Below are positions 6,252 to 45,484 of a DNA stretch of 64,000 bases, piece after piece. The DNA comes from Anisakis pegreffii (taxonomy: Eukaryota; Nematoda; Chromadorea; Rhabditida; Anisakidae). The notes beneath the pieces were generated by a model. That model ran no database searches. It saw nothing but the letters and a program-made list of their open reading frames with translations, and had not been told where the DNA came from. The number at the start of each line of letters is the position of its first letter. Position 1 is the stretch's first letter. Both the position numbers and the translations under genes were made by a program. The stretch lies in the NCBI GenBank assembly GCA_035041965.1, contig JAPYMA010000815.1, forward strand, positions 1 through 64,000. The letters run 5' to 3'.

Positions 6252-6367
6252 ATGAGATCGTCGTCTCAAATTCTCAATGCATTGCTATACTTGTTCTTTA
6301 TTGACTGCTTGTTGGTAGAAGTAACCCATCAAAATGGAGTTAAGAAGATTCCAGCTGCTGCTGAAGG
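6252..6367 (+). other. Exon 1 of gene B: start codon and signal peptide
   Basis: ATG at 6252 opens a 38-residue segment with a short polar start, a hydrophobic core ([16 protein letters not shown]) and a polar stretch, ending in phase 2 at a GTTTGT donor. This reads as a cleavable signal peptide that sends the protein into the secretory pathway. It splices to 6601 in frame, giving ...EG-WFDIS. The start was chosen because it directly follows a splice acceptor and because no other in-frame start precedes the first trefoil exon. Confidence 0.75.
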
Positions 6368-45300: not shown

Positions 45301-45484
45301 CTGTTTCAGGGAACCGTTCATAACAACCACTACAGAACCAACGCCTTCCGGAGAAGAGACCACAGAACCGACAAGTGGGGAACCGGGGACTACAGAAACG
45401 ACAACAAAACCTTCAAAAGTAGCTGTGTCTAACCATCCAATTCTTCTCTTGCTCATATTAAATGCTCTTGCACACGCAATATAA
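6252..45484 (+). CDS. Gene B: five-module GH31 alpha-glucosidase, secreted and GPI-anchored
   Basis: One 97-exon gene, summed coding length 14,067 bases, about 4,688 residues. Layout: signal peptide (residues ~1-25), modules 1-5 (about 39-959, 960-1877, 1878-2794, 2795-3708, 3709-4630), then a Thr/Pro/Glu-rich tail with a GPI-like end. Each module is a P-type (trefoil) domain followed by N-terminal beta domain, (beta/alpha)8 barrel and C-terminal beta domains of GH31. GH31 enzymes of this type release glucose from maltose, isomaltose and starch fragments. The evidence for a single gene is that all module boundaries are phase-2 introns joining in frame, that there is one signal peptide and one tail, and that no stop or start exon lies between modules. 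Modules 2-4 look catalytic, 1 and 5 degenerate. Two introns need GC donors. If those are not spliced the protein would break in module 2 or 5. Mammalian homologues have two modules. Confidence 0.85.
6601..14970 (+). CDS. Gene B module 1: trefoil + GH31, catalytically degenerate
   Basis: Exons 6601-6718, 6807-7003, 7217-7359, 7813-7910, 8062-8241, 8352-8513, 8640-8777, 9316-9435, 9879-9962, 10508-10615, 11019-11219, 11796-11947, 12159-12374, 12597-12710, 12971-13112, 13527-13668, 13957-14040, 14186-14334, 14756-14970; 2,763 bases, 921 residues. The trefoil (RIDC...FCAERGC...PKCYFP) leads into a complete GH31 fold. The nucleophile block reads GIMLEDNTP where active modules have GIWIDMNEP: Glu (codon 11043-11045) replaces the Asp nucleophile and Thr the following Glu. 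The acid/base block GHWLGDN is intact (Asp 12205-12207). Other changes are GVARP for GVVWP, AYLDF for AFPDF and RVHK for RNHN. The frame is fully open, so this is a maintained but probably inactive module, perhaps structural or carbohydrate-binding. Confidence 0.85.
15066..22416 (+). CDS. Gene B module 2: trefoil + GH31, active-site residues intact
   Basis: Exons 15066-15177, 15569-15759, 15853-15995, 16270-16367, 16693-16872, 17101-17262, 17461-17598, 17722-17844, 18095-18178, 18495-18602, 18787-18978, 19205-19356, 19690-19905, 20148-20261, 20524-20665, 21057-21198, 21384-21467, 21740-21897, 22202-22416; 2,754 bases, 918 residues. Nucleophile motif [11 protein letters not shown] (Asp 18811-18813), acid/base [11 protein letters not shown] (Asp 19736-19738), substrate-binding YADIDYM, and GADICGF are all present. 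Two oddities: the third exon ends at a GC donor (15996-15997), without which TAG follows at once, and the exon at 21057 uses a weak TTTGAG acceptor created next to an insertion. The second half is nearly identical to gene A. It joins module 1 through a phase-2 intron (acceptor CTTAAG) and a linker of about ten residues. Confidence 0.85.
18792..21226 (+). repeat. Segmental duplication, copy 2 (partner 1-2300), inside module 2
   Basis: Matches gene A over five introns and six exons. Compared with gene A, this copy has roughly 150 extra bases just before the exon at 21057, replacing the TTTTCAG acceptor seen at 2125-2130 with TTTGAG. Confidence 0.9.
22584..29665 (+). CDS. Gene B module 3: trefoil + GH31, active-site residues intact
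   Basis: Exons 22584-22698, 22861-23051, 23245-23387, 23773-23870, 23974-24147, 24620-24781, 24996-25133, 25820-25939, 26111-26194, 26403-26510, 26674-26874, 27046-27197, 27593-27808, 27934-28047, 28145-28286, 28457-28598, 28674-28757, 28922-29073, 29451-29665; 2,751 bases, 917 residues. The trefoil has IEC...SCEAKNC...PTCYYP. Nucleophile [11 protein letters not shown] (Asp 26698-26700), acid/base [11 protein letters not shown] (Asp 27639-27641), [13 protein letters not shown] and [11 protein letters not shown] are all intact. I found no abnormal splice site or stop, so this is the cleanest module. Exon number, phases and most exon lengths equal those of modules 1, 2, 4 and 5. Confidence 0.88.
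25181..25218. repeat. Perfect 14-bp inverted repeat (hairpin) in a module 3 intron
   Basis: ACTGTTTCAGTTCA and its exact reverse complement are separated by ten bases. The left arm contains a TTTCAG that could act as a decoy acceptor. No further element structure is seen around it. Confidence 0.7.
29886..37695 (+). CDS. Gene B module 4: trefoil + GH31, active-site residues intact
   Basis: Exons 29886-30000, 30320-30498, 30850-30992, 31438-31535, 31719-31904, 32006-32167, 32465-32602, 32914-33033, 33192-33275, 33496-33603, 33784-33984, 34270-34421, 34574-34789, 35109-35222, 36318-36459, 36589-36730, 36850-36933, 37016-37164, 37487-37695; 2,742 bases, 914 residues. Nucleophile [11 protein letters not shown] (Asp 33808-33810), acid/base [11 protein letters not shown] (Asp 34620-34622) and [13 protein letters not shown] are intact. 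The region before the C-terminal WDDGES block is unlike the other modules ([13 protein letters not shown]). The longest intron of the gene (35223-36317) carries a GC-rich hAT-type MITE. Probably an active alpha-glucosidase unit. Confidence 0.87.
35403..35573. mobile_element. GC-rich hAT-type MITE (171 bp) in an intron of module 4
   Basis: Begins TAGTGTTCGTCGGGGA and ends TCTCCGACGAACATCA, imperfect terminal inverted repeats. It is flanked on both sides by the direct 8-bp repeat GAATATAG (35395-35402 and 35574-35581). An 8-bp target duplication and a TAGTG terminus are features of hAT transposons. The inside is strongly GC-rich with runs of C and G, unlike the AT-rich surroundings, and has no transposase, so it is non-autonomous. 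It shares its inner sequence with 52599-53069. Confidence 0.85.
38103..44819 (+). CDS. Gene B module 5: trefoil + GH31, acid/base and substrate-binding Asp lost
   Basis: Exons 38103-38217, 38310-38512, 38757-38899, 39081-39178, 39448-39627, 39758-39919, 40021-40158, 40301-40420, 40590-40670, 41122-41229, 41494-41682, 42139-42290, 42406-42621, 42769-42900, 43287-43428, 43644-43788, 44099-44182, 44386-44525, 44602-44819; 2,766 bases, 922 residues. The nucleophile motif WLDMNEP is kept (Asp 41518-41520), but the acid/base block reads GHWLGEN (Glu codon 42452-42454) and YADIDYM has become FAGYNYM (Gly 40114-40116, Asn 40120-40122). The GVVWPD block reads GVGRPD. The first intron needs a GC donor (CAG|GCGAGG at 38218). 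The end of the module (from about 43950) is the segment shared with gene A and diverges strongly after WDDGES. Open throughout, probably non-catalytic. Confidence 0.83.
40858..40881. repeat. Perfect 24-bp palindrome in a module 5 intron
   Basis: CGCTCATGATTG is followed directly by its reverse complement CAATCATGAGCG. It lies in the intron 40671-41121. Function unknown; it may be a trace of an inserted element. Confidence 0.6.
43915..43990 (+). pseudogene. Decayed duplicate of the PRQ...SRK exon, upstream of the intact copy in module 5
   Basis: Behind GTGTAG the bases can be read [12 protein letters not shown], like the GGSIIPRQ...TT exon of other modules (compare 21384-21467), but the first bases of the exon are missing and it then degenerates. 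An intact version of the exon follows at 44099-44182. The equivalent relic in gene A lies at about 2447-2520, where the frame hits a stop after GGSTVFR. Confidence 0.55.
45310..45484 (+). other. Terminal exon of gene B: Thr/Pro/Glu-rich spacer and GPI-anchor-like signal
   Basis: After a phase-2 splice the exon codes for about 57 residues: a mucin-like spacer with repeated TTEPT / GTTETTT elements, then VAVSNHP and the hydrophobic end [13 protein letters not shown], stop TAA at 45482-45484. The composition suggests O-glycosylation (inference). The end fits a GPI signal, so the chain would be anchored to the outer cell surface by its C-terminus. The last 24 residues differ from those of gene A at only two positions, while the spacer is about 11 residues longer. 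Confidence 0.65.

Follow-up and report, generated by a model that had tools for sequence, protein, structure and literature searches.

The stretch of Anisakis pegreffii DNA analysed here (the window, bases 1-64000 of the 112,146-base contig C594) is best read as encoding a single GH31 protein of five modules with short linkers between them, secreted and probably anchored. With a probability of roughly 80%, the gene, termed gene B, is transcribed as one unit and encodes a secreted ectoenzyme of ~4,691 residues in which modules 2-4 are active. The architecture can be followed in the DNA itself, and from it we infer a single mRNA. All genome-wide comparisons refer to 122.7 Mb on 1,740 contigs.

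Exon structure and domain content of gene B

Gene B spans positions 6252-45484 of the forward strand and consists of a signal-peptide exon, five trefoil+GH31 modules of 19 exons each and a tail exon. The coding length of 14,076 bases is divisible by three and gives 4,691 amino acids with the sole stop at the end; the original prediction of 97 exons joined in frame to ~4,690 residues held when the chain was rebuilt, with 97 exons and no internal stop. For this, a draft of module 3 was joined from the conserved blocks that recur in order when module 3 is compared in translation with the remaining modules and loci, and was used as seed in a protein-to-genome alignment allowing introns in all three phases. 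This splice-aware alignment returned a stop-free module in all five regions tried, as expected from the five complete trefoil+GH31 modules claimed before, with scores of 2423-4696 (the value of module 3 is inflated by its own template). As a control, a five-module profile scored 37-82 in the eight of 14 neighbouring stretches without any GH31 piece and 59-156 in the six into which a single-module gene extends with one end. The alignment output was pruned of two tiny exons within modules and of three terminal fragments, two of which were the opening bases of the next module; the outer module edges as well as signal exon and tail are manual placements.

The resulting modules lie at 6601-14970, 15066-22416, 22584-29665, 29886-37695 and 38103-44819, all on the forward strand. 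Every one of the 96 introns, which span 75-1095 bp, has an AG acceptor, and the donors are GT apart from two GC sites. The five modules share an identical phase vector at 19/19 exon ends, and the signal exon as well as each module ends in phase 2. Two positions are uncertain, namely the signal-exon donor (6367 was adopted; 6396 with a different acceptor is likewise in frame) and the start of exon 18 in module 4 (37037, or 37016 with seven additional amino acids). Pseudogene decay was tested and found unlikely.

In Pfam searches of modules 1, 2 and 5, the three submitted, the trefoil, the GH31 barrel and the GH31 C-terminal domain were above cut-off; the barrel (PF01055) reached 235.6, 316.2 and 249.3 bits against a cut-off of 23.5, and PF21365 also passed. 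For modules 3 and 4, the barrel was seen as single-exon matches above cut-off. Among solved structures, the module-3 draft matched best to maltase-glucoamylase (MGAM), sucrase-isomaltase (SI) and lysosomal alpha-glucosidase (GAA, 485 bits), and the gene B modules are 33-40% identical to MGAM-N and SI-N. The trefoils of modules 1-5 and of the single-module loci have four cysteines compared to five in the MGAM-N stretch, the missing one belonging to a CC pair; possibly, one disulphide is absent throughout this trefoil-GH31 family.

Module junctions, signal exon and tail exon

The four module junctions are phase-2 introns at 14971-15065 (95 bp, GTGAGT...TTAAG), 22417-22583 (167 bp, GTAAGT...CTCAG), 29666-29885 (220 bp, GTAAGT...TTTCAG) and 37696-38102 (407 bp, GTAAGT...TTTCAG) on the forward strand, and all four lengths fall within the intron range of gene B. 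Junctions 29665/29886 and 37695/38103 emerged from the alignment unprompted and coincide with those predicted originally, while the coordinates of 14970/15066 and 22416/22584 were taken over from that prediction and their splice signals and frame then found fitting. Measured against gene B's own sites, the junction donors rank at the 21st-100th percentile and the acceptors at the 17th-93rd, two of them being weak (17th and 22nd). The linkers of only about ten residues between modules that had been proposed are kept in the rebuilt model.

Even with five modules encoded, alternative splicing or polyadenylation could yield shorter main products of one to four modules. Reading unspliced through the donor meets an immediate TGA or TAA at all four junctions, so that shorter, unanchored products are possible, and as the boundary introns are all phase 2, skipping of whole modules would stay in frame. 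However, a GTRA donor in phase 2 inevitably creates a stop and this is no signal in itself, and none of the six poly-A hexamers searched for occurs in junctions 1-2 and 4-5. We therefore regard shorter main products as unlikely.

A little less probable still is an operon or gene cluster, i.e. five tightly packed single-module genes resolved by SL2-type trans-splicing. Nematode intercistronic gaps cover a range that includes 95-407 bp, into which the junctions fit, the genome has SL1 genes, and several junctions contain elements that could mark gene ends or starts: one AATAAA in junction 2-3, AATGAA together with a tail-like candidate in junction 3-4, and signal-peptide-like stretches in junction 4-5. 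Against this stand the phase-2 continuity across all four junctions and the distance of ~2.3 kb between gene B and its neighbour, gene A. In addition, three of four junctions have ATGs that read in frame into the trefoil exon; two sets of these lie inside the trefoil exon, and none leads a signal peptide.

Junction 4-5 is the sole one of the four with signal-peptide-like exons inside, in the form of three overlapping candidates. Such open stretches are found in 11 of the 96 gene B introns (7/41 in the 250-700 bp class), and none of the three candidate ATGs is preceded by TTYYAG at a distance of up to 60 nt; for these two reasons, the stretch was discounted. An open stretch together with the motif is present in 2/96 introns, and in none of the four junctions does an ATG with an acceptor motif in front lead a signal-peptide-like exon. 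In junction 3-4, the tail-like candidate (29830-30016) has a hydrophobicity of 2.4 versus 3.01 in the real tail, the in-frame ATG at 29863 is without a hydrophobic stretch, and signal-peptide character is absent in both. Within 1,500 nt upstream of each junction, signal-peptide-like open stretches do occur, inside the exons and introns of the preceding module.

Exon 1 (6252-6367, + strand) combines an ATG with a signal-peptide-like stretch and ends in phase 2; a TTTCAG ends five bases before the ATG and would suit trans-splicing as well as cis-splicing. Exon 97 (45310-45484, + strand) encodes a Ser/Thr-rich stretch and a hydrophobic, GPI-signal-like C-terminus, which we infer to be a GPI-type anchor signal. 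By DNA similarity, from which strongly diverged copies would escape, the signal-exon region is found twice genome-wide (gene B and contig C286), and the tail region likewise twice (gene B and C594:3877-4116). The second copy of each is assigned to gene A, which leaves modules 2-5 without a B-like signal or tail exon of their own. The hydrophobic end, one element of the cleavable C-terminal signal that follows small residues in GPI-anchored proteins, is conserved between the two genes (best 10-residue mean 3.01 in gene B and 2.98 in gene A), whereas the linker has diverged. Taken together, the searches of junctions, signal exons and tail exons made a separate gene at each module unlikely.

Collapsed or misjoined single-module copies are highly improbable, for although the contig starts within gene A, whose other half apparently lies on C286 and runs into a dispersed repeat, the window has no N runs, four misjoins would all have to yield in-phase canonical introns, and the modules are just 50-64% identical to each other, so the array is not an assembly echo.

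Catalytic residues

Seven positions were compared, numbered by counting on the MGAM-N chain: D203, D327, W406, D443, R526, D542 and H600. We take D443 to be the nucleophile, D542 to be the acid/base and D327 and R526 to be substrate residues. All seven are kept in the alignment of modules 2, 3 and 4 to MGAM-N, including both the nucleophile (WIDMNE) and the acid/base (WLGDN). Module 1 carries W406R, D443E at the nucleophile (GIMLEDN) and R526G, and module 5 carries D327G, W406R and D542E at the acid/base (WLGEN). Of the several glucosidase sites originally suggested, those of modules 2-4 hold up with a full set; in modules 1 and 5, catalytic or substrate residues are replaced, so that three active sites are predicted in five modules. 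Module 1 is predicted to be inactive and module 5 to be inactive or impaired, as catalytic D-to-E changes may reduce activity instead of abolishing it. The GH31 membership of both by sequence stands; their activity is doubtful.

Incomplete sets are not confined to gene B. Among 14 nematode modules (five of gene B, gene A and eight single-module loci), nine are complete and five incomplete: modules 1 and 5, C497 (D203N, W406R, D443S, H600N), C193a (D327N, W406L, D443S, D542A, H600N) and C1361 (D443T, D542Y, H600D). The tryptophan of the VWPD motif is changed to R or L in four of these five. C497, C193 and C1361 are open-frame, single-module trefoil-GH31 loci without one or both catalytic Asp residues and hence candidate GH31 pseudoenzymes. 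Since a stop inside an exon is heavily penalised by the alignment, the stop-free frames of incomplete modules are supportive and no strict test. Eleven complete rows share 138 invariant columns, of which module 1 keeps 114, module 5 125, C497 118, C1361 108 and C193a 102, and in leave-one-out controls eight intact modules lost 0-11 of 138-149 columns; as the columns were picked on complete rows, the comparison is biased toward the controls, which the leave-one-out design reduces. This pattern suggests that catalysis was lost and the fold retained in the incomplete modules. In the alignments for these counts, the catalytic comparison, the tree and the approximately unbiased (AU) tests, the exon-18 starts of modules 1 and 5 are five residues off the final model.

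Other GH31 loci and the origin of the array

Besides gene A, the genome contains eight single-module trefoil-GH31 loci, two of them on one contig, with one module each; the ends of three were found in the neighbouring stretches. Profile searches of the adjoining stretches gave no further module beside C193, C1672, C497 and C1361; C163, C10 and C1300 were covered beyond their loci by the genome-wide family search. C63 yielded no module (score 81). Gene B is the only multi-module GH31 gene found in the genome, with C1361 cut by the contig end: its module ends ~30 bases from there, so more modules could follow. The GH31 gene on C576 presumably resembles glucosidase II, going by a motif of that enzyme.

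A maximum-likelihood tree was built from 16 rows, with MGAM-N and SI-N but without GAA and the C-terminal modules of vertebrates. In it, the gene B modules fall within the nematode family, and a single group (99/98) unites all five with gene A, C497 and C1361, separate from the remaining six nematode loci as well as from MGAM-N and SI-N. This topology suggests that expansion to five modules took place within nematodes. Branches within the group are mostly weak. Modules 1 and 5 cluster weakly with C1361 (79/68), and this cluster enlarged by C497 was not rejected (p 0.147). A single clade of all five incomplete modules was rejected (AU p 0.002), and an exclusive clade of modules 1-5 and gene A was disfavoured (p 0.034), because C497 and C1361 fall inside. 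The groups subjected to AU tests were named after seeing the first tree.

Neighbouring paralogue and further features of the window

The 3' half of gene A occupies positions 1-4116 on the forward strand, with module-2-like exons 11-16, module-5-like exons 17-19 and a tail exon at 3830-3971. Here, the sequence is module-2-like up to base 2330 and module-5-like from base 2420, both positions lying in intron 16. On C286, the gene A signal exon is followed by a short intron and a module-2-like trefoil exon, and the pieces on the two contigs are probably one gene, with the 5' half on C286. Gene A thus looks like the gene B plan recombined in introns, i.e. signal, module 2 and the end of module 5. 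Alternatively, C594:1-4116 could form the final part of another multi-module gene. The match of C286 breaks off at the position corresponding to 18718, where a dispersed repeat takes over (C286:172999-173747, 46 other matching places); this may be either an insertion in an intron or an assembly break. C594 begins at the equivalent of 18792, and its first 199 bases are identical to module 2. In its coding sequence, gene A is close to module 2, with synonymous and other changes numbering 7 and 10 for exons 1-10 and 9 and 3 for exons 11-16 (dS 0.0245 and 0.045, dN/dS 0.39 and 0.09, from few changes).

Further downstream, the window contains a tandem repeat (50238-51825) of 3.9 copies of a 403-bp unit, 97% alike, which carries four similar open frames of 101-109 aa. 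As for the SL1 spliced-leader genes of the genome, which mark it as that of a nematode, 24 of 31 matches were over cut-off and the letters were read in one locus (C14). Of 26 motile-sperm matches, the one compared proved to be a VAP-like protein. The genes on C14, and also on C181 and C1485, are arranged in tandem with a unit of 552 or 559 bp, and on C14 the genes are separated by a 5S-like sequence (5S rRNA by eye) in the same orientation.

Proposed function and comparison with known systems

In the proposed protein, a signal peptide would be followed by five trefoil+GH31 modules with ~10-residue linkers, a Ser/Thr stalk and a GPI-type tail. Judged by their complete residues, modules 2, 3 and 4 would each cleave alpha-glucosidic bonds, using the two aspartates of the retaining GH31 mechanism, and modules 1 (membrane-far) and 5 (membrane-near), in which the fold-level sequence is kept, would probably function as a spacer or stalk or in sugar binding. 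Because every module is bounded by phase-2 introns, unequal crossing-over within introns could add or remove whole modules in frame and so multiply them; the sequence of gene A would fit a similar event in reverse. By analogy to MGAM and SI, a type characterised by alpha-glucosidase activity on maltose and starch ends at a brush border, gene B would most likely digest starch-derived oligosaccharides at a surface, e.g. the gut brush border. We tentatively propose, at a little under even odds, a pentamodular rod of three active glucosidases with a pseudoenzyme module retained at either end for sugar binding or spacing, belonging to a wider nematode set of GH31 pseudoenzymes (5/14 modules), with the array resized via crossing-over in phase-2 introns. 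If true, the two-module plan of the intestinal alpha-glucosidases would be extended here to five with inactive modules built in, and gene B is a clear natural case of phase-symmetric introns allowing in-frame multiplication of a large enzyme domain. With active and inactive modules in one chain, the role of inactive GH31 modules would become open to direct testing, and so large a surface enzyme would bear on carbohydrate feeding in nematodes.

Among known systems, GAA and the single-module GH31 genes of nematodes have one trefoil+GH31 unit of the kind that each gene B module represents, compared to five in gene B. In mammals, some MGAM loci carry additional C-terminal modules in tandem and so share with gene B the growth of module number by tandem duplication, but human MGAM forms are not known to reach five modules. 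A comparable protein may already be present in automatic annotations of related nematodes. Gene B shares with MGAM and SI the tandem trefoil+GH31 units on one surface protein, here five in one frame as read from the DNA, and the same catalytic motifs in modules 2-4. In contrast, MGAM and SI have two modules, whereas two of the five in gene B are without the full catalytic set; and MGAM and SI are anchored N-terminally in the membrane, whereas gene B has a signal peptide and a C-terminal GPI-like tail. Since five modules, a signal exon and a hydrophobic tail replace the two-module, N-anchored plan, we avoid the name of an orthologue and consider gene B, from its sequence, a variant of the MGAM/SI-type multi-modular alpha-glucosidase.
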